This document shows positions 2,608 through 40,473 of a stretch of DNA of 64,000 nt, piece by piece. Position 1 is the first letter of the stretch. The number at the start of each line of letters is the position of its first letter. The translations under genes were made by a program, and so were the position numbers. The notes under the pieces are model-generated. The model had not been told where the DNA came from, did no database searches, and saw nothing but the letters and a program-made list of their open reading frames with translations. Origin of the DNA: an uncultured Verrucomicrobia subdivision 3 bacterium (GTDB taxonomy: Bacteria > Verrucomicrobiota > Verrucomicrobiia > Limisphaerales > UBA11358); the NCBI GenBank assembly GCA_903850425.1, contig CAINLR010000109.1, forward strand, positions 1 to 64,000. Direction: 5' to 3'.

Positions 2608-3324
2608 ATGACGATCACGCTTTTTATTCCCTGTTTCATAGACGCGCTGTTTCCGCGCGCGGGCATCAGCATGGTGCAACTCCTCGAAGGCCTCGGTCAC
2701 AAGGTTGTCTGTCCGCCGGAAATTTCCTGCTGCGGCCAGCCGCCGTTCAACTCCGGTTACTGGGACGAGGCGCGCCCGGTCGCCGCCAAAGTTCTGGAAC
2801 AACTCAAAGACGCCGAAGCCGTCGTCATCGGTTCCGGTTCCTGCGGCGCGATGGTTAAAAAGTTTTATCCCGAGCTGTTCGCCGGCAAACCGCAGGAAGC
2901 AATGGCCAAAAAAGTCGCCGCGCGCACGTGGGAATTTTCTGACTTCATTGTGACCAAACTCGGCGTCACGGATTTTGGCGCGAAGTTCCCGCACAAAATC
3001 ACCTTCCACGACGGCTGCCACGGTTTGCGCGAACTCGGCATCAAGAAATCGCCGCGCGCCTTGCTCGCCAAGGTCCAGGGTTTGCAACTCGTCGAGATGG
3101 CCGAGGCCGAGACGTGCTGCGGCTTCGGCGGCACCTTCGCCGCGAAGTTCCCGATGATCTCCACCGCGATGGGCGATGTGAAATGCGCCAGCGCCGCCGA
3201 GACCGGCGCGGAATACATTGTCTCCAACGACTCCAGTTGCTTGATGCACCTGCAAGGCTTGCTGTCGCGTCAGGGCAAGCCGCTGAAAACCATTCACCTC
3301 GCGGAAGTGCTGACCCAAAAATGA
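2608..3324 (+). CDS. lutA: (Fe-S)-binding protein, lactate utilization LutA/YkgE
   Basis: CCG-type motifs (ISCCGQPPFNSGYW, ETCCGFGGTFAAKF), followed by lutB and lutC. Confidence 0.9.
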   Translation: MTITLFIPCFIDALFPRAGISMVQLLEGLGHKVVCPPEISCCGQPPFNSGYWDEARPVAAKVLEQLKDAEAVVIGSGSCGAMVKKFYPELFAGKPQEAMAKKVAARTWEFSDFIVTKLGVTDFGAKFPHKITFHDGCHGLRELGIKKSPRALLAKVQGLQLVEMAEAETCCGFGGTFAAKFPMISTAMGDVKCASAAETGAEYIVSNDSSCLMHLQGLLSRQGKPLKTIHLAEVLTQK

Positions 3325-3329
3325 AATTT

Positions 3330-3468
3330 CAACCACGGATAAACACGGATGGACACGGATGGAAAGACGCGAACTACGCGAATTATCGCGAATTACAATG
3401 TCCGGTCTTTAATTCGCGTCAATTCGCGTCAGTTTTTATCTGTGCTCATCCGTGTCCATCCGTGGTTC
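3330..3468. repeat. Interspersed inverted repeat (ACCACGGATNNACACGGAT family), copy a
   Basis: AACCACGGATAAACACGGATGGACACGGATGG at left and ATCCGTGTCCATCCGTGGTT at right; copies at 17629, 28644 and 35390. Confidence 0.9.
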
Positions 3469-7928: not shown

Positions 7929-8291
7929 ATGTCGTCGAAATCGATTCTGTCTGACTTTAGCTGGCTGTTCCTCATTGTGCTGTTTGGTGCCTTCACTTGG
8001 TCGGCGGCTGCGGTCAGCCCCAATGGCACCCCATCGTTTATCATCAACGCCCAGAACCATCCAACCCTGACGCTGACGCGTGGCGTCACTTATGTGTTCG
8101 TGCTTTCAGGCACCTCCATTCGTCCGTTTTGGATCAAGACCGATCTCACCATCGGTTCTGGCGGCGGTTGGCCCATTGCCCGCGCCCGGGCTATTTGTTT
8201 TCAGCGAGTGCCGCCTGCGTGGCCAGCAACTCGCGCCGCATTTCCGCCGCCGATGCATACCGTTCGGCGCAGTTCGGGTGACAGGCTTTGA
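7929..8291 (+). pseudogene. 5' remnant of a secreted protein gene, truncated against the converging kinase gene
   Basis: Signal peptide plus NHPTLTLTRGVTYVFVLSG...PFWIKTD, then low-complexity readthrough overlapping the kinase 3' end. Confidence 0.5.
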
Positions 8292-10242
8292 GAATGATGG
8301 TGTTCAGTGGAAAGAAATTCGTGGCTTTACTCGGGTCAACCAGGCTCGTGGCCAGCTCCGGAAAAAAGGTCGGTTTGTTGCCGGTGCTCAAGACGTAGAG
8401 CATCATGCCCAGCGCGTAGATATCGGCCTGCGGCGTGCCGGGCCGCTCCGGCGGCGGCGGCATGTAGCCGGGCGTGCCGACCAGCGTGCGTTCCTGATCG
8501 GCCGGACGGATTTCGGACGTGAGTCCCATGTCGGCCAGTTTGGGCTGGCCGTTCACGAAGATCACATTTTGCGGTTTGATGTCGCGGTGCGTCAGCCCGC
8601 AGCCGTGCAGAAAATCCAGCGCCTCGGTCAGCGCGAGGCTGATGCGGAGACAATCCGCCACCGGCAAGCGCTTGGCGTGGGATTGGGCGCGTTCGTTGAC
8701 CAGATCGCGCGGGATGTAAGTGGCGGGCGCGCTTTCCCAGCCCGGCGCGAGCGCATCGCCCAGTTCCATGACGTAGTAGAAATAGCCGTCCAATTTTCCG
8801 CTGACAAAATCCACGCGCAACAGTCCGGGATGCTGCGTGGAAACTGGATGGTAACGGCTGATGCCGTTGAACTCGCGCTCATACGGATCGGGATTCTCAT
8901 CAAACCGGGCGAGATAGATCACTTTCAGCGCCCGCCATTCACCACGTTGGTTGCGGGCCAGCCAGACTTGCCCGTAAGCGCCCTCGCCGAACGGCGGATG
9001 GAATATTTCGTAGCCGGGAATTTTCGGGGCGGCCACCATCGGAATGGTTCGGCCAGCGGCCGCTTCGTGGTGGAGCGTGACGGCGGTTTGCGTGCCATAA
9101 ATTTTTACGCCCACCGCCCACGCCAGCGCGCAGGGCACCTGGCCGGCGGCAATCACCAGCCACGGGAACCAGCAATTGGTGAAATAGCTGAATGAAATCG
9201 CCCCAACCGCCACCGCCAGGGCCAGCCCCGTGGCCGTCAGGCCGGCGGTCAGCCAGCGCAGCCGCCACAAGTTTCCGCCCAGCCATGCTCCGGTCACGGC
9301 CAGCAGCAGCATTTCCACCAGCCACGGGGGGCGGCGCAGCCAGTCGCGGTTCATGAGATTTAAAAACTCGGTGACCAGAATTTCCACGCCGCCGGAAGAC
9401 TCGTCCGTCCAGCGCGTGTAGGGCGTGGCGAATTCATCCTCTTCACCGTCCATCAGCGACGTGTGCGGCTGCGTGCCGACGAAGACAATCTGGTCGCGAA
9501 AATAATTCGGCGGCTGGGTCAGCGCGAACGCGTAGCTCATCGTGGTCCAGCCGCCTTGCGGTCCGTAGTAACGCAGCCATTGTTCGTGCGGCAGCTTGTC
9601 CAGCCGCGCGCCCGCCAGCCGCGCCACCGTCCACGGCAGGCTGGGATACGGTCCCAGCGACGGGAACGGCCAGTGCCGGCGCACGATGTGATCCAGGTCC
9701 GGATTGAGCCAGGCGACGCCCCAGTTGGTGCCGGCCGCGTTGACAAAAATTTCCGCCGGCAGATTGGGTTGCGAGCCGGTGAAGCCGGGATGGTTCACCT
9801 GCGATTGTTCCGCCATCAACACCACGCGGCCTTGCCGGCGCATGGCGCTCGCGAGCGCATCGTCTTTCGCCGGGGCGTCCGGTTTTTCAAAAAACGAATC
9901 AAATGTCACCAGGGCGCAACCGTCAGCCGCCAGCTTGTTCAATAATTCGGCATGCAACGCCCGGTCCCACGGCTGGCCGCGCGGCTGATGAAATTGCGCG
10001 AATGCCGCATTATCCATCAGGATCAAAGTGACCCGGTTGGTGACGACAGGCCCGCCGAAGCGGAACAAATAATCGTAGCTGGCATTTACCCAGGCATCCC
10101 CCAGCGGCAGCATCCACAGGAGCCAGCCGCATAGCACCACCACCGCCGCGCCCAGCGCGGAAATGAGCCGTGAATTGTGGTTGGGGGGCGGGCTGCTCAC
10201 AACGTGCGGCCACACTGTAAGCAGGCGTGGGGCAAAGAACAA
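8191..10242 (-). CDS. CHASE2 sensor domain serine/threonine protein kinase
   Basis: N-terminal CHASE2-like region with TM segments; kinase motifs GEGAYGQVWLAR, ALKVIYL, HRDIKPQNVIF, DMG, GTPGYMPPPE. Confidence 0.85.
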   Translation of the reverse strand: MFFAPRLLTVWPHVVSSPPPNHNSRLISALGAAVVVLCGWLLWMLPLGDAWVNASYDYLFRFGGPVVTNRVTLILMDNAAFAQFHQPRGQPWDRALHAELLNKLAADGCALVTFDSFFEKPDAPAKDDALASAMRRQGRVVLMAEQSQVNHPGFTGSQPNLPAEIFVNAAGTNWGVAWLNPDLDHIVRRHWPFPSLGPYPSLPWTVARLAGARLDKLPHEQWLRYYGPQGGWTTMSYAFALTQPPNYFRDQIVFVGTQPHTSLMDGEEDEFATPYTRWTDESSGGVEILVTEFLNLMNRDWLRRPPWLVEMLLLAVTGAWLGGNLWRLRWLTAGLTATGLALAVAVGAISFSYFTNCWFPWLVIAAGQVPCALAWAVGVKIYGTQTAVTLHHEAAAGRTIPMVAAPKIPGYEIFHPPFGEGAYGQVWLARNQRGEWRALKVIYLARFDENPDPYEREFNGISRYHPVSTQHPGLLRVDFVSGKLDGYFYYVMELGDALAPGWESAPATYIPRDLVNERAQSHAKRLPVADCLRISLALTEALDFLHGCGLTHRDIKPQNVIFVNGQPKLADMGLTSEIRPADQERTLVGTPGYMPPPPERPGTPQADIYALGMMLYVLSTGNKPTFFPELATSLVDPSKATNFFPLNTIILKACHPNCAERYASAAEMRRELLATQAALAENK

Positions 10243-10335: not shown

Positions 10336-10764
10336 ATGACCAAAAAAATCAAACCCACCTTGGGATGCGTGTTGGCCCTGCTGGTGCTGGCAGGCTTCGC
10401 GGCGGACGTTGCCTGGGCGGACCTCCAGGTCATTCCGTTCACCGCCCGCGTCATGAACGGTTCCGGCTGTCCCGGGGCGAACAATGGTTATGCCAAGATG
10501 ACGAACAGCGCGGGAACCTACAACATCACGCCGCCGGCCAACGCGACCGGTTGCACCTTCACGGATGCGTCCGGGTTTGCCGCGCCCTATGTTTCCGTGG
10601 CGACGGTGATTCGCAAAAGTGACCAGTTGACTTGGTGCGGCACCAACAGCGTGACCTTCCCGGTGGCGAGCAACCAGCAGTATTCCATGACGATCTACGT
10701 CAAGAGCACGCCGCCGCCGCCGACCAACAGCCAGCCGATCAAATTACAGGCCAATTGGCAGTGA
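10336..10764 (+). CDS. Secreted hypothetical protein
   Basis: 142 aa with clear signal peptide MTKKIKPTLGCVLALLVLAGFAADVAWA. Confidence 0.6.
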   Translation: MTKKIKPTLGCVLALLVLAGFAADVAWADLQVIPFTARVMNGSGCPGANNGYAKMTNSAGTYNITPPANATGCTFTDASGFAAPYVSVATVIRKSDQLTWCGTNSVTFPVASNQQYSMTIYVKSTPPPPTNSQPIKLQANWQ

Positions 10765-10979: not shown

Positions 10980-13379
10980 TTAGAAGCTGATCTTGAGCCG
11001 GGCGAGGAAAGTCCGGCTGCGCACCATTTCGTTGTGCAGGTTCAGCGGCTCCAAGGAATAATTCTGGTCGAAGACATTCAAAAATCCCGCCGTCAGTTCT
11101 GCGCGGCGATGCCAGAAGCGGTAGCCGGCAAAGGCGTTGAACTGCCAGAAATCATCGCCCGGTTCGGGCGTGGAAAATCCTGAGTTCTGCTGGTGATACC
11201 AGTTGGCCTCCAGCACGGAGAAGAGGCCGCAGGGATGATTCCAGTTCGCGTGGAGATTCACTGTATGCAGCAGGCTTTCCATGCTTTGGCGGACTTGAAA
11301 CGGCGCGTCAAAATTAATGGCCGGCAGTCCGTCAGGGAAATCCGCATAGTGCAAATCCAGTTTGGCCTGCGACAACCGGTAACGGGCGCCGGCGGTCCAC
11401 TGCTGGCCGAGCAGTTGATCGGCCGAGCAGGTGAGCGACGCCTCTTGGAACTTCATGGATTGCCTCAAGCCGGTGGTGTAGGTCGGATAAAGATTGGTGT
11501 CCGATTGATCCACGTTGTAGATGTAGGCTCCTTGCGCGCCGTCTTTCTGCGAACAAAGAAATTCTCCCACCACGGCCAGATACGTTCCGGTATCAAATTT
11601 TTGTTCCAGCGACAAAGCATAGGTGTCGAATTGGGAACCGCTGGAGTCGCCGGCCACGGATTCTGGAGCCAGACTGCGGAAAGCCTGATTGAAACCCGCC
11701 ACCTCCGTCGGTTCCAGCCGCAGGCTCTGGCCTTGCGCGAAACCGGACAGGGAGCGCGTGTAGGCGGCACGCAGGGTTGTGTTCGTCCGCGGCGTCCAGA
11801 TGAATCCAATTTTGGGCGAAAGCAGACTCGTGGTCTTTTCCTGCGCGGCAAATGGCGTCGTTGCCAAATCCATCGGCTGATACAATTGGTCATAGCTCAA
11901 GCCTGCGTTGATGGCGAAAGTATCAGTCAACTGCCAGTTGTGATAGCCATAGACCGTGAATTGGTGGAAGTTCAAGGAAAAATCTTGGGGCGTAAGCGTG
12001 TAGCCGTCTTCGAACAACTCTGCTGGGAATTGACTGCCTAAATTGAAATTCGCGTTCCCCCGGTGTTGATCGCGAACCTCGCCCCATTGGTAGCGCGCGC
12101 CGACCATGGTGGAATGGTTCGGAGTTTCCCAGATTTGCTGGAGTTCGGCCGAATACAGCAACTGCGAAATTTGCACCAACTCATCCGCACCCATATACCG
12201 TTGGGCATTCAAAGCCCCATTATAAATAAACCCAATTACTTGGGCTCCGTTGATCACGTTGGCGATTTCATCCGCCGCCTGCCGCGTGCCGAAGAACAGC
12301 GTGTGGACGCCCGGACTCCATTCGTGGTGATAACCCAGATACACATTTGGCTCCTGCCTTTCCGCAAAGCGGATGGTGGGATTGGCGTAAGCCTGATCGT
12401 AGTATTGGCTGTTATCGCCGTAGTTAATCTGGGCCAGTTGCACGCCGCCGAAGAGGCTGTCTTGGGAAGTCAATTGCCCCTTGAGCGTGACATTAAGTTC
12501 CTGGTTCTGGAAATCGCCGTTGAGCCGTTGGCCGGGATCGTATTGGTGGGCCACGCCGACGTTGTAACTGAAATTGCCGGAGGTGTAAAACTGCTCGGCC
12601 TTTTCCGTCAAGCTGCCGCGGCTGAGATATGTCGTGTCGGACGCGAAACCCAGCCGGCTCTGCTCAAAAAATTTCGTGCGCGGCTGCTCGGAAGTCAGCG
12701 GGGTCAGCCAGCCGGCCCCGGTGGGCGCGAGCAAATTGGCGATCCAAAATTCGTCGCTGGCCGGCGTCTCGTAACGGAGATTGCTCCAGTTCGGATCGCG
12801 CAACTGGTCGTAGCTGTTGGCCAGAAACAGGTGCGCGGAATAATTCGCGTAATCGGCGCTCACGGCGCGGCCGGCTTCGCGCAAGCTCACGTCCAGCATC
12901 CCGGCGTCGCGATACACGCCCGCCAGATTGGCGCTGCGCACCGCGCGGTCCTGATCCAGCAACAGTTGCGAGCGATAGACGCTGCGGTTGTCATTCAACG
13001 CCTGGGATTTTTCCAGGTCGCGAATCGCGTCGTTGATTTCGTTGCCTTGCTGCTTGAACAACGCCGAATACAGCCACGGCGTCGGGTCCTGCGGATCCAG
13101 CTTCTGCGCGAGCGCGAGTTCCTTGGCGGCTTGCGCGTGGTCGCCCTTGGCGATGTCGGCCTTGCCGAGATAGCTGCGCAACTCGGAGCGCTGCGGTTCG
13201 AGCGCGGCCGCCACGAGCAAATCCTCGCGTCCGCCCGCCGCGTCGCCCCGCCGGATGCGCGCCAGGCCGGATGCGCGCCAGGCCGCGACCGAGCCAGGCA
13301 TTGCCCAGCGCGGAATCCACGGCGATGGCCTGGTCAAACCAGGTGATGGCTGCGTGCGGCTGATTTCTGGCGGCGGCAA
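10980..13379 (-). CDS. 3' part of split gene: TPR segment plus TonB-dependent-receptor-like outer-membrane beta-barrel
   Basis: Alternating aromatic beta-strand pattern, C-terminus ...FLARLKISF; TPR-like N-terminal part continues the reading of 12991-14553 in another frame. Confidence 0.75.
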   Translation of the reverse strand: MPPPEISRTQPSPGLTRPSPWIPRWAMPGSVAAWRASGLARIRRGDAAGGREDLLVAAALEPQRSELRSYLGKADIAKGDHAQAAKELALAQKLDPQDPTPWLYSALFKQQGNEINDAIRDLEKSQALNDNRSVYRSQLLLDQDRAVRSANLAGVYRDAGMLDVSLREAGRAVSADYANYSAHLFLANSYDQLRDPNWSNLRYETPASDEFWIANLLAPTGAGWLTPLTSEQPRTKFFEQSRLGFASDTTYLSRGSLTEKAEQFYTSGNFSYNVGVAHQYDPGQRLNGDFQNQELNVTLKGQLTSQDSLFGGVQLAQINYGDNSQYYDQAYANPTIRFAERQEPNVYLGYHHEWSPGVHTLFFGTRQAADEIANVINGAQVIGFIYNGALNAQRYMGADELVQISQLLYSAELQQIWETPNHSTMVGARYQWGEVRDQHRGNANFNLGSQFPAELFEDGYTLTPQDFSLNFHQFTVYGYHNWQLTDTFAINAGLSYDQLYQPMDLATTPFAAQEKTTSLLSPKIGFIWTPRTNTTLRAAYTRSLSGFAQGQSLRLEPTEVAGFNQAFRSLAPESVAGDSSGSQFDTYALSLEQKFDTGTYLAVVGEFLCSQKDGAQGAYIYNVDQSDTNLYPTYTTGLRQSMKFQEASLTCSADQLLGQQWTAGARYRLSQAKLDLHYADFPDGLPAINFDAPFQVRQSMESLLHTVNLHANWNHPCGLFSVLEANWYHQQNSGFSTPEPGDDFWQFNAFAGYRFWHRRAELTAGFLNVFDQNYSLEPLNLHNEMVRSRTFLARLKISF

Positions 13380-14553
13380 TAAAGCCTTTTAACGCGAGGG
13401 CCTGGGCATTGCGCGGGGCCAGCGCGAGGCTCTTATCCAAAGCCTCGATCGCCGGGCCGGTGCGGCCAAAACTAAATTCCAATTCCGCCACGCGCGCCCA
13501 CGCGAAGCCGAACTCCGGCGTCGTTTTCGCCGCCTGCCGCGCCAGCGTCAAGGCGGTGGCTAGGGAAGTGTCGCGGCGGGCGCGGGATTGTTCGTAGTAG
13601 GAATCGGCCAGCCACGTCGTGGAAGTTGCGGCGTTGCTGGCGCCCGAACGCGGCTGAAATTTCACGGCGCTGATGACTTCGCGCAACGCGTCGGCGAGCG
13701 GCGATGGCATCGTGCCGAGTTGCCTTTCGCAGGCATCCGCCTGGCCGACCGACAACAGCAGTCCGGCATAATATATTTTTCCGGCCTCGGAAACGGGTGC
13801 CGTCGCGCGCGGATAATTCGCCAGCGCCGCCGGCAAATCGCCCGTGCGATAGGCCGCGAGCGAGGCGTTGAGCCTGATCTTCTCCTCCGGCGTGAGTGCC
13901 AATTCATCCGGGTTCAGCACGGCGGGATAATAAAAACACCATTGCAAAAGATTGTTGGCAATGAAGCCGGCCGTGCGCACCGGCGTCTGGCCCAAATCCA
14001 CCATCGCCTGCTGGCCATTGGTCAGCGTGAGGGTCGCTTGGTCGTTGCCAAATGCAACCTGACCGTCCACGACCGACAGGATCGTGCGCTCCGTAGCATC
14101 CACGGCCAGCACAAATTCCGTGCCCCGCACCCCGGCGACCGCGCCGCGCGTGATGATCTTGATGCGCCCCGGCTGGTCGCGATGAAAAAAGGAGAGGATG
14201 CCCTGAACCAAATGCAAGCCGCTCTGATCTTGGGGCGTGGGCGGCGGCAACACTTCGAGTTCGGTTGAAGCCCCGAAGGCAATGACGCTTTGCCCGGACC
14301 ACCGCAGCGCCATGCGGCTGTTGGCCCCGGTGCGCAACCGGTCAAACGCGTGAAAAATCTGGTTGGTGTGCGCCATCGTCCAAGTCGTGGCCCCGGCAGG
14401 GGCGGTTTCCACCGCGCCCTGGAGCTCCACCATTTGAACTTCGTTCGCGTGACTGGCGGCCGGTTGAGCACCGGCGACACTGGTCAGCACTGCGAGGATC
14501 GCCCCATTCAGCAGGAGTAACCGCGACCGGCTCTTGAGTAAAAACATATTCAC
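12991..14553 (-). CDS. 5' part of split gene: FecR-domain plus TPR protein
   Basis: Signal peptide, FecR-like segment (ITRGAVAGVRGTEFVLAVD), TPR-like repeats; loses sensible sequence after GRGLARIR at a 16-bp duplication. Confidence 0.75.
   Translation of the reverse strand: MNMFLLKSRSRLLLLNGAILAVLTSVAGAQPAASHANEVQMVELQGAVETAPAGATTWTMAHTNQIFHAFDRLRTGANSRMALRWSGQSVIAFGASTELEVLPPPTPQDQSGLHLVQGILSFFHRDQPGRIKIITRGAVAGVRGTEFVLAVDATERTILSVVDGQVAFGNDQATLTLTNGQQAMVDLGQTPVRTAGFIANNLLQWCFYYPAVLNPDELALTPEEKIRLNASLAAYRTGDLPAALANYPRATAPVSEAGKIYYAGLLLSVGQADACERQLGTMPSPLADALREVISAVKFQPRSGASNAATSTTWLADSYYEQSRARRDTSLATALTLARQAAKTTPEFGFAWARVAELEFSFGRTGPAIEALDKSLALAPRNAQALALKGFIAAARNQPHAAITWFDQAIAVDSALGNAWLGRGLARIRPGAHPAGRRGGRTRGFARGGRARTAALRVAQLSRQGRHRQGRPRASRQGTRARAEAGSAGPDAVAVFGVVQAARQRNQRRDSRPGKIPGVE
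13251..13282. repeat. 16-bp perfect tandem duplication CCGGATGCGCGCCAGG x2
   Basis: Read directly; removing one copy restores a single continuous frame. Confidence 0.97.
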
Positions 14554-17628: not shown

Positions 17629-17720
17629 AACCACGGATGGACCCAGATAGACACGGATGAAAATTCATCGGCGAGCTGCGTTTGTCAGAATCCGTGTGCA
17701 TCGGTGTCCATCCGTGGTTT
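17629..17720. repeat. ACCACGGAT-family inverted repeat, copy b
   Basis: TTAACCACGGATGGAC...GTGTCCATCCGTGGTTT. Confidence 0.85.
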
Positions 17721-22313: not shown

Positions 22314-25300
22314 TCATTGGATGGCCATGATGATGCCGTTGGTGATGTAGAGCGTATGGCCGCCAATCAGGAGGTTGGTGTTGACTCCGCCGGTGATGGC
22401 GTTGGCGGAAAGATTGGTCAAGCCCGCGCCGTTGCCGGTGACCACGCCGGCAATGAACGCCTGCGTCTGGCCGGAGCCGATGCGGATTATGTTGGTGTCC
22501 GTGGCCGAGCCCATGTTTCCAATGTCAATGTTGGAACTGCCCGTGGTGATGTTCCAGCCAGCCTGATAACCCAAGCCAATGTTGTAGCTGCCAGTGGTGT
22601 TTTGGTTAAGCGACTGATAACCGTCGGCAGTGTTGTTATTGCCGGTGCTGTTGTTCCAAAGCGCGCTGCCTCCGTTGGCGGCATTGTTGTTGCCGCTGGT
22701 GTTTTGGTTAAGCGACCAATAGCCGCTTGCGGTATTGTTGTTACCGGTGGTGTTGTTCCAAAGCGCGCTGCCACCATTGGCGAGGTTGCCGTTGCCAGTT
22801 GTGTTGCTCGCCAGCGCCTGATAGCCGACGGCTGCATTGTTCAAAGCTGAATACGCCGAGGGGCCGGTCAAATTCACGTTCGTCAAACCCGCGCCATTGC
22901 CAGTGATGACGCCAGCAATCAACGCCAGCGTCTGAACGTCGCCAATGCGGATAATATTGTTGTCCGTGGCCAGCCCCGCGCTTCCAATAATAATGTTGGA
23001 ACTGCCCGTTGTATTGTAGTAACCCGCCATGCTGCCCAGCGCGATGTTGTTACTGCCGGTGGAGTTATTATAGAGCGCATTCCAACCTTCCGCCGTGTTG
23101 TTATAGCCGCTGCTATTATTCGCCAATGCCTGAAAGCCATTGCCGGTATTGTAATAGCCGCTGGTATTGCCGCCAAGCGCCCCTTCACCGGCTGCTGTAT
23201 TGTCGCTCCCCGTGGCATTGCTATACAACGTGCCATTGCCATAAGCCGTGTTCCCACTGCCGATGGTATTTTGCTGCATCGCTTGAATACCCGCCGCCGT
23301 GTTGCCGGTGCCGCTAGAGTTGAGGTGCAGCGCCTGCCAGCCAAGGGCGGTGTTGCCCAGGCCACTCATGGTCAGGTTGCCGGCCCCGGCACCGACAAAA
23401 ATGTTCTTCGTTCCGAACGCCTGGAGCAAGGGGCTCCCGCCCGAGTAGAGGATTCCCGCCGTCGCCGTCGTGGCGGGCAGATACAAGTTGCTACTCACCG
23501 TTATATTCCCTGCGAAACCCGCGCCATTGAGATTGGTCAAACCCGCGCCGTTGCCGGTGATGATGCCGGCAATGAACGCCTGCGTCTGGCCGGAGCCGAT
23601 GCGGATGATGTTGTTGTCTGTGGACAAGCCCATGTTGCCAATGTCAATGTTGCTGCTGCCCGTGGTTGGGTTGTAACCTGCCTGAAAACCCAAGGCGATA
23701 TTATTGCTGCCGGTCGTATTACTGGTAAGCGCCTGAAATCCGTCTGCCGTATTATTTTTTCCGCTCGTGTTGCTCACCAGTGCCGCCTCGCCATTTGCGG
23801 TGTTGTTGCTCCCGCTTGTGTTGCTGGCCAGCGCGAAGAATCCTGCGGCGGTATTCAAAGAACCAATCGTGTTATTCTGCATGGCCGAAACCCCATAGGC
23901 GGTGTTCTCAATTCCGATCGTGTTCGACCGGAGCGCATTTACACCGCTGGCGGTGTTCTGAAATCCGGTCGTGTTGGCGGACAACGCGCTCAAGCCGCTC
24001 GCCGTGTTGTCGAAGCCGGTCGTGTTGTTCAGAAGCGTTTGGAAGCCAACGGCGGTATTATCGTTGGCGGTCGTGTTGTTGAAAAGCGCATGGTAACCGG
24101 CAGCGGTATTCAGAGAGCCGCTCGTATTGTTTTGCAATGCACCACTTCCACTGGCCGTGTTTTGGTAGCCGGACGTATTCGCGTAAAGCGCCCAGTCGCC
24201 GACGGCCATGTTTTGATATCCGCTGGTGTTGTAAAAAAGCGCCAATTGTCCGAAAGCCTCGTTGGCCCATCCATTCGTGTTGGTGTTGAGTGCCTCGTAG
24301 CCAACGGCGGTATTGCCGCCCGCAGTCGTATTGTTTTGGAGTGCTCCGTAACCACAAGCTGTGTTCTGGCTGGCGGTGGTGTTGGCAGCAAGGGCATACG
24401 AACCGCAGGCTGTGTTCACGCCACCACTGGTATTGCTAAAAAGCGCGTGATCGCCAACGGCGGTCAGCCAGCCTCCCGTGGTGTTGAATAAAAGAGAATC
24501 CGTTCCCACAGATGTGTTCTGGATACCGGTAGTATTATTAACCAAAGCGGCTTGGCCGACGGCGGTGTTATTATAGCCGGTTGTATTGGATTGCAAGGCA
24601 GCTTGGCCAACGGCAGTGTTATAACCTCCAGTCGTATTGTGTTGCAGCGCATCAACACCGTTGGCGGTGTTGTCACTGCCGGTAGTGTTGGCGGCAAGCG
24701 CCAGATAGCCATTGGCCGCGTTTCCCAGCGCGGAGCTTGCTGAAGGTCCGGTCAAGTTCACGTTGGTCAAGCCTGCGCCGTTGCCATTAAATAAACCTAC
24801 GAATGAATTGCTCAGATTGTTGAATGTGCTGGCCCCGTTGAAAACATTGCCGCAATTGAAGGTCTGATAGGCATTGCTCGGCGGCAATGCAATCGTCAGC
24901 GTGGCGGCGGCGGAATAATGGGTGCCCGCATTTTGCACCGTGAGACTCGTCACTGCGCCGTTGACAACCGTGCAGGTGATGACCGCGTTGGAACCGCTGG
25001 CATCCGTGACCGTCACCAACGGAGCCGTCGTGTATCCCGCCCCGCCATTGGTGATGATGGTGTCCACAATGAACCCGGAAACAATGACCACACCCGCCGT
25101 GGCCTGGACGGTGGTGTTGGGAATGTTCAGCCGCGCGATGTTGCTGCTCAACAGACTGTCGGCCACCGTGCCGGTCAGGCTGGCTGCCGGCAGATTCGTC
25201 AGGCCGCCGCCATTGCCGGTGAACGTGCCGGTCAGGTTTGCGCCGGTGGCATTATTCGTCACCACGGCGGCAGGCAATTGCGCCAGCGGCACGGTGCCCA

Positions 25301-28632: not shown

Positions 28633-28643
28633 GCACAGAAATT

Positions 28644-28793
28644 AAACCACGGATAAACCCGGATGGACACGGATAAAATAGCTGCCGAAGCGCTATGCGG
28701 GGAGCTTCCGCAATTCAGACGCTTCGCGAGAAATCCAAGTTCAAACCACGTCGCGTTTTTCCAATCCGTGTTGATCCTGTCCATCTGTGATTA
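28644..28793. repeat. ACCACGGAT-family inverted repeat, copy c (diverged)
   Basis: AAACCACGGATAAACCCGGATGGACACGGAT ... AATCCGTGTTGATCCTGTCCATCTGTGATT. Confidence 0.8.
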
Positions 28794-35395: not shown

Positions 35396-35547
35396 GGATG
35401 GACGCGGACAAACACGGATGGGGCAAAACGCCGAGACGCGGAGGCCGCAAAGAAACGCAGAGGATTTTTTTTCCGCTGCGCCATTCCGCGTTCTCTGCGC
35501 CTCCGTGTTTGTTTTTATCCGTGTTCATCCGTGTCCATCCGTGGTTG
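35390..35547. repeat. ACCACGGAT-family inverted repeat, copy d, with inner inverted repeat
   Basis: AACCACGGATGGACGCGG ... ATCCGTGTCCATCCGTGGTT with CGCGGAGGCCGCAAAGAAACGCAGAGG and its inverted partner inside. Confidence 0.9.
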
Positions 35548-39132: not shown

Positions 39133-39451
39133 AAACTGTGCGTGCCAAGTGGCCTAACTAGGATTCGGGCGCAAATTGCGGTATATCAAGTCAGGCATGG
39201 AGGGGTTGTATTTCAGGCTTCCCCCGTTGTCAACAAGGGTTTGTATCTTTTCCAGCCATGAGTATTGAACCGGGAAAAACCGCACGCCCGCGCGCCCAGC
39301 CAATTCCCAATCCGAAGTTGCGGCTGCGGAGTCCGCAGGATGGCTGAAACCAGGAAAAAATGCCGGATTTGGGAGTTTTCAGGATTTTATTGCGATTTTC
39401 GGCGCTTTTGGAGGAGTTTTGGCCGGCAACCTTCCTTCCACCACCGCCCGG

Positions 39452-39703
39452 ACTCCTATCCTGGCGGCGCGGACTCCTATCCTGGTGGCGCGGACTCCTA
39501 TCCTGACGGCGCGGACTCCTATCCTGACGGCGCGGACTCCTATCCTGACGGCGCGGACTCCTATCCTGACGGCGCGGACTCCTATCCTGGTGGCGCGGAC
39601 TCCTATCCTGGCGGCGCGGACTCCTATCCTGGTGGCGCGGACTCCTATCCGGGCGGCCAGAACTCCTATTCCGGCGGCGCAGACTCCTTTCTGGCGGGCG
39701 GCA
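39452..39703. repeat. 21-nt tandem array (12 units), consensus ACTCCTATCCTGRYGGCGCGG
   Basis: ACTCC at 39452 to 39683 at exact 21-nt spacing. Confidence 0.97.
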
Positions 39704-39891
39704 GTTCATTGGCGGGTGGCGGGGATGGGTGGCCGGCTGCCTGGCATTCCTGGGCCAGGGCGGCGGATTGGAAGCCGGGCGAGGTGGGTTGGCCGCCCGC
39801 CGGAGACGGTTTAACCTGGAACCCGAGGAGTTGGTTCACGGGTTTCAGGGCAACATCACTTGTCAGGCAGCGGGGCGGCTCAATGGCGATT

Positions 39892-40473
39892 TCAAGGGGT
39901 GCGGACTTTTTCCACTCGCCCGTCAAAGTAGAGCGCGTTTTTTCCCGCGAGCCGGCTGTGGGCGCCATGGAAAGGGTCGGCGTCGCCCATGATCGGGGTT
40001 TCGTCGCGGCCGCCAAAGAGTGTGTTCACAATGACGCTGGCTTCGTTGGTGTAGATCGTGGCCCATTGCGGCGCGGAATACGGGGCGTCGTTCAACCAGA
40101 AATTCCATTCGTAGCTGGTGAGTTCCTGGTCAAAAAGATTTTGATCGGCCGGACAGGCGAATACTTTGTTCGTCTTTTGATTGGCGAACAGGGTGGTGGT
40201 GATGGGCGGCAGCTTGGTCATCTGGCTGGGCAGATAGCCCGCGCAGACCGGCAGGCGGTCGCGATTGTCCTGAATGTAAACGTTCAGCGCCAGGCCGATC
40301 TGATGCAGGTTGCTGACGCAAGCAATGGATTTGGCGGTGTTTTTTCCCTTGGCCAGCGCCGGGAGTAACAAGGCCGCCAGAATGGCAATGATGGCGATGA
40401 CCACCAGCAGTTCAATCAGCGTGAAGGCCCGGAGGGGGCGGTGTGACCCGGTGGATTTATCGTGGAGATGCAT
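39892..40473 (-). CDS. Prepilin-type N-terminal cleavage/methylation domain protein
   Basis: [30 protein letters not shown]. Confidence 0.88.

Follow-up and report, generated by a model that had tools for sequence, protein, structure and literature searches.

A perfect 16-bp tandem duplication was found inside the gene of a FecR-TPR-beta-barrel outer-membrane protein, within a 64-kb stretch of DNA (the window, positions 1 to 64,000 of a contig of 113 kb) from the genome of a soil-type Verrucomicrobiota. The second copy adds a net 16 nt, which shifts the reading frame of this minus-strand gene and splits it into frames of 520 and 799 aa. We consider it rather likely that this is an ordinary, recent slippage duplication that generated a loss-of-function allele of a single-copy secreted FecR-TPR-barrel gene.

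The duplication and the two frames

The gene runs from position 14553 to position 10980 on the minus strand and is read as two ORFs, which the first-pass annotation had described together with their translations and which were confirmed as stated. The upstream frame (12991..14553, minus strand, 520 aa) encodes an N terminus resembling a signal peptide, as judged by eye, a FecR domain (Pfam, 3.7e-11), and TPR-like repeats, followed by about 90 out-of-frame residues past the duplication. The downstream frame (10980..13379, minus strand, 799 aa), which is in the native frame only past the duplication, includes further TPR sequence from the end of that region and a C-terminal beta-barrel like that of TonB-dependent receptors (Pfam TonB_dep_Rec_b-barrel, 6.4e-6), whose 26.7 bits against a cut-off of 27 bits are marginal alone. 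In the intact homologue L004, the Pfam order is FecR, TPR, and barrel, the latter passing the cut-off with 38 bits, and in the homologue L008 the barrel reaches 45.8 bits. All parts of the protein are found in the window gene, although not in one frame, as the frame changes at the duplication. Neither half contains a further stop or a second frameshift, and no second copy of the gene was found in a search of the rest of the genome. Removal of one 16-bp copy leads, as had been calculated, to a single frame of 3,558 nt. An AlphaFold model built from an alignment of two sequences only had a mean pLDDT of 27.5. The called start of the downstream ORF, a TTG at 13379, is situated on the upstream side of the duplication and belongs to a frame unused by the relatives; no obvious ribosome-binding site accompanies it. 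It is a start set by the ORF caller and not evidence for a second gene.

Direct inspection of the sequence and Tandem Repeats Finder agreed on the two adjoining identical copies of the unit (13251..13266 and 13267..13282, minus strand; CCGGATGCGCGCCAGG in plus-strand reading), exactly where they had been annotated. The entire repeat (13250..13285) comprises 2.25 perfect copies, GCCGGATGCGCGCCAGGCCGGATGCGCGCCAGGCCG on the plus strand, and was reported by the program with a period of 16, 2.2 copies, and a 100% match. Across the entire 6.89-Mb assembly of 197 contigs, CCGGATGCGCGCCAGG was found only at these two adjoining sites. When the 64-kb window was simulated 60 times with a first-order Markov model, no perfect tandem repeat with a period of 12–40 appeared, and the longest run of identity at lags 12–40 was 13 in the simulations versus 20 observed. 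The tetramer GCCG occurs at 13250–13253, 13266–13269, and 13282–13285, so that in the single-copy form, the 16-bp unit would sit between two 4-bp direct repeats 16 bp apart. Short flanking repeats of this kind are typical of duplications that arise through strand slippage or microhomology, and the copies are perfect and adjacent in the window, where the relatives have a single segment.

Other short tandem duplications in the sampled part of the genome (1.35 Mb) were mostly of a length divisible by three or sited where they split no gene. Among those not divisible by three, a 17-bp duplication (L096, 14826–14862) runs across a stop codon at a gene end and leaves a 331-aa ORF intact, two of 14 bp lie inside an open 831-aa frame (L092) and close to the end of an open frame of 567 aa (L072), and one of 13 bp is placed just past a gene start (L059); none of them splits a gene as that at 13250–13285 does. 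Their presence indicates that such events occur in the lineage, and the duplication described here is remarkable only for hitting a long conserved frame; the event itself is ordinary and of a known kind. Frame breaks and frame-breaking duplications were not abundant in the same 1.35 Mb, and the idea that frame errors are in excess throughout the assembly was rejected, as only nine candidate junctions, mostly weak, were detected there.

The window also contains repeats of other types. A 21-bp unit is repeated 12 times at 39449–39701, with a period divisible by three, inside the ORF 39265–40368, and imperfect 102-bp (2 x 51) repeats are located at 22589–22841 inside a 1,132-aa ORF, without a Pfam match in either case. 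In addition, short repeats with a 10-bp period, of the type CACGGATGGA / ATCCGTGTCC, were detected at 3334–3431, 17690–17716, 28643–28677, and 35517–35543, and look like a dispersed repeat family.

Homologues and gene neighbourhood

Relatives of the same genus and order carry both parts in a single open frame of about 1,160–1,300 aa. The 36 homologues in which the junction could be parsed all read straight through it (WLGRGLxRIRxGDxxGGREDLL or similar), and the repeat was present there in none of them (0/36); six more loci were unmatched by the junction-finding motif and left out of this count. Frame breaks in this gene were rare: among about 150 homologues listed, seven besides the window gene had open frames below 1,000 aa, and three of these matches (in G176, G249, and G062) start within 350 bases of a contig start. 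Most of the homologous genes had no frame-changing repeat elsewhere in the gene either. No second genome of the same species was found in the collections searched.

The homologue of genome G038 (L016, about 3080–3130; G038:C326:12212–12254) is likewise in two frames, with the break further downstream, near the border between the TPRs and the barrel, and no tandem repeat was present at that split. In addition, contig ends interrupt the gene between the TPRs and the barrel in three relatives (G005, G023, and G033; loci L018, L015, L028, and L017), which possibly reflects strain variation or assembly difficulty.

The surroundings of the gene are conserved. A CHASE2 sensor with a Ser/Thr kinase domain (8191..10242, minus strand; CHASE2 4.5e-33, Pkinase 2e-23) is intact and 64% identical to the neighbour in the closest named relative (locus L063), a Limisphaerales MAG from palsa soil (PLYV01000161) and the sole named relative from a scan of the genome contigs. 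Between the kinase and the FecR-TPR-barrel gene, a small signal-peptide-like protein of no Pfam family (10336..10764, plus strand) is encoded, 57% identical to the protein at L063:8498–9112. In that relative, a sigma-70 region 2 protein (L063:3929–4720) is divergent from the FecR-TPR-barrel gene; an ORF of this type is absent directly upstream of the gene in the window.

Coding signature and origin of the second copy

A codon-usage scan blind to repeats, run on the 1.35 Mb of genome, gave nine junctions resembling a frame switch, and the strongest of them by the scores of abandoned tail and new frame was that of the FecR-TPR-barrel gene, whose switch falls within the duplication, at 13268. The tail of the upstream frame past the duplication has non-coding codon usage, with codon-position GC values (0.85, 0.71, 0.41) unlike those of the surrounding genes, whereas the same DNA read in the frame of the relatives gives 0.72, 0.42, and 0.85. 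The GC3 of the two halves (0.76 and 0.73) can be set beside that of the neighbouring dxs and kinase genes (0.77). Divergence from the closest homologue by codon position was 0.30/0.22/0.45 for the N-terminal part and 0.23/0.16/0.46 for the C-terminal part, the same third-position-biased pattern as between intact homologues, and the branch of the window gene was not inflated in trees, falling within the range of the intact homologues. Each half still has the appearance of an intact gene under constraint. The retained coding composition, the divergence pattern, and the normal branch together suggest purifying selection until very recently, or selection that is still ongoing if the second copy is an artefact. 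The homologues, the domain content, the codon usage, and this constraint all back the earlier proposal of a single outer-membrane gene put out of frame. Comparison with relatives confirms that the two ORFs are one gene, and they should be recorded as one disrupted gene and not as two proteins.

The sequence of events that best fits these data starts with slipped-strand (microhomology) replication between a pair of GCCG tetramers spaced by 16 bp, by which the 16-bp duplication would have arisen recently in the TPR region of the single-copy gene. The extra 16 nt would shift the frame, and translation would yield a FecR-TPR fragment that stops roughly 90 residues further on and lacks the barrel. 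Because the part encoding the barrel itself carries neither a signal sequence nor a ribosome-binding site, it is predicted to be neither made nor exported. The allele would then be a loss-of-function one, in the sequenced strain or in the majority of its population, although some periplasmic activity of the FecR-TPR fragment is conceivable. Among the alternatives offered by the first-pass annotation, the recent frameshift is the one that fits best.

It is possible, although on the unlikely side, that the gene is intact in the organism, with a single copy of the unit, and that the second copy was introduced by contig building, merging, or gap closing. The assembly is a draft of 197 contigs, apart from the duplication the gene is intact and appears to be under constraint, its homologues rarely show frame breaks, and the contig ends inside the same gene in G005, G023, and G033 suggest that it may be awkward to assemble. 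Against this, the window contains no N, the sampled 1.35 Mb is not generally rich in frame breaks, and the 4-bp microhomology at the breakpoint, expected of biological slippage, would by our own estimate accompany no more than a few per cent of arbitrary joins. A real mutation is favoured by this microhomology and by the generally low rate of frame breaks, whereas the artefact draws its weight from the draft assembly and from a gene that is otherwise perfect.

A contingency switch, in which gain and loss of the 16-bp unit would reversibly toggle the barrel protein in the population, seems improbable. In its favour, the gene product is a protein of surface type, slippage can remove a perfect short tandem duplication precisely, and spontaneous sequence duplications are reported to control phase variation in pneumococcal capsule genes (Waite 2001, 2003, as cited in PMC4022640). 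However, the repeat is not kept across related strains or species at this site, as none of the homologues examined has it, and any duplication leaves two copies as a minimum; there is no sign of selection for repeat instability. The slippage-type on/off switch, as proposed earlier, found no support as an evolved device in the sequence comparison, because the repeat is not conserved. That a two-copy duplication born of microhomology toggles the surface FecR-TPR-barrel protein in a Verrucomicrobiota population in the wild, with no classical tract of repeats, appears very improbable; if a mixed population did exist, uncultured soil bacteria would offer an inexpensive natural case in which tandem duplication reversibly inactivates a surface protein. 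Finally, a real split, in which two functional proteins are made separately or the repeat is a site of programmed frameshifting, is hardly credible: both frames are long and open, but the roughly 90 residues of the upstream frame past the duplication have non-coding composition, the downstream ORF begins in an unused frame and lacks both a signal sequence and a ribosome-binding site, and no such arrangement is seen at this site in the 36 parsed homologues.

Comparison with known systems

The window gene resembles the FecR-TPR-barrel outer-membrane proteins of Limisphaerales (Verrucomicrobiota) in domain order, frame-corrected length, and its CHASE2-kinase neighbour, and differs from them in being out of frame, whereas they are in frame. 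Simple-sequence-repeat contingency loci are many-copy tracts of short units kept at a locus. They share with the window the alteration of a reading frame by slippage in phase variation, but in the window a 16-bp unit is present just twice, and none of the homologues examined has this repeat. In the pneumococcal capsule genes (type 3 locus, cap8E, and tts), short tandem duplications and phase variation have been reported (Waite et al. 2001, 2003, as cited in PMC4022640). As in the window, a short tandem duplication within an ORF breaks there a gene for a surface structure; in contrast to those genes, in which phase variation was reported in the same source, the window gene is unrelated and known from one assembled sequence. 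In addition, microhomology-mediated tandem duplication (MTD) has been described as reversible in the ssp1 gene of Schizosaccharomyces pombe (PMC13207564, review). Although that system is eukaryotic and reversible, whereas the window shows the end product only, both have in common two tandem copies derived from one microhomology-bounded segment and the premature stop that follows.
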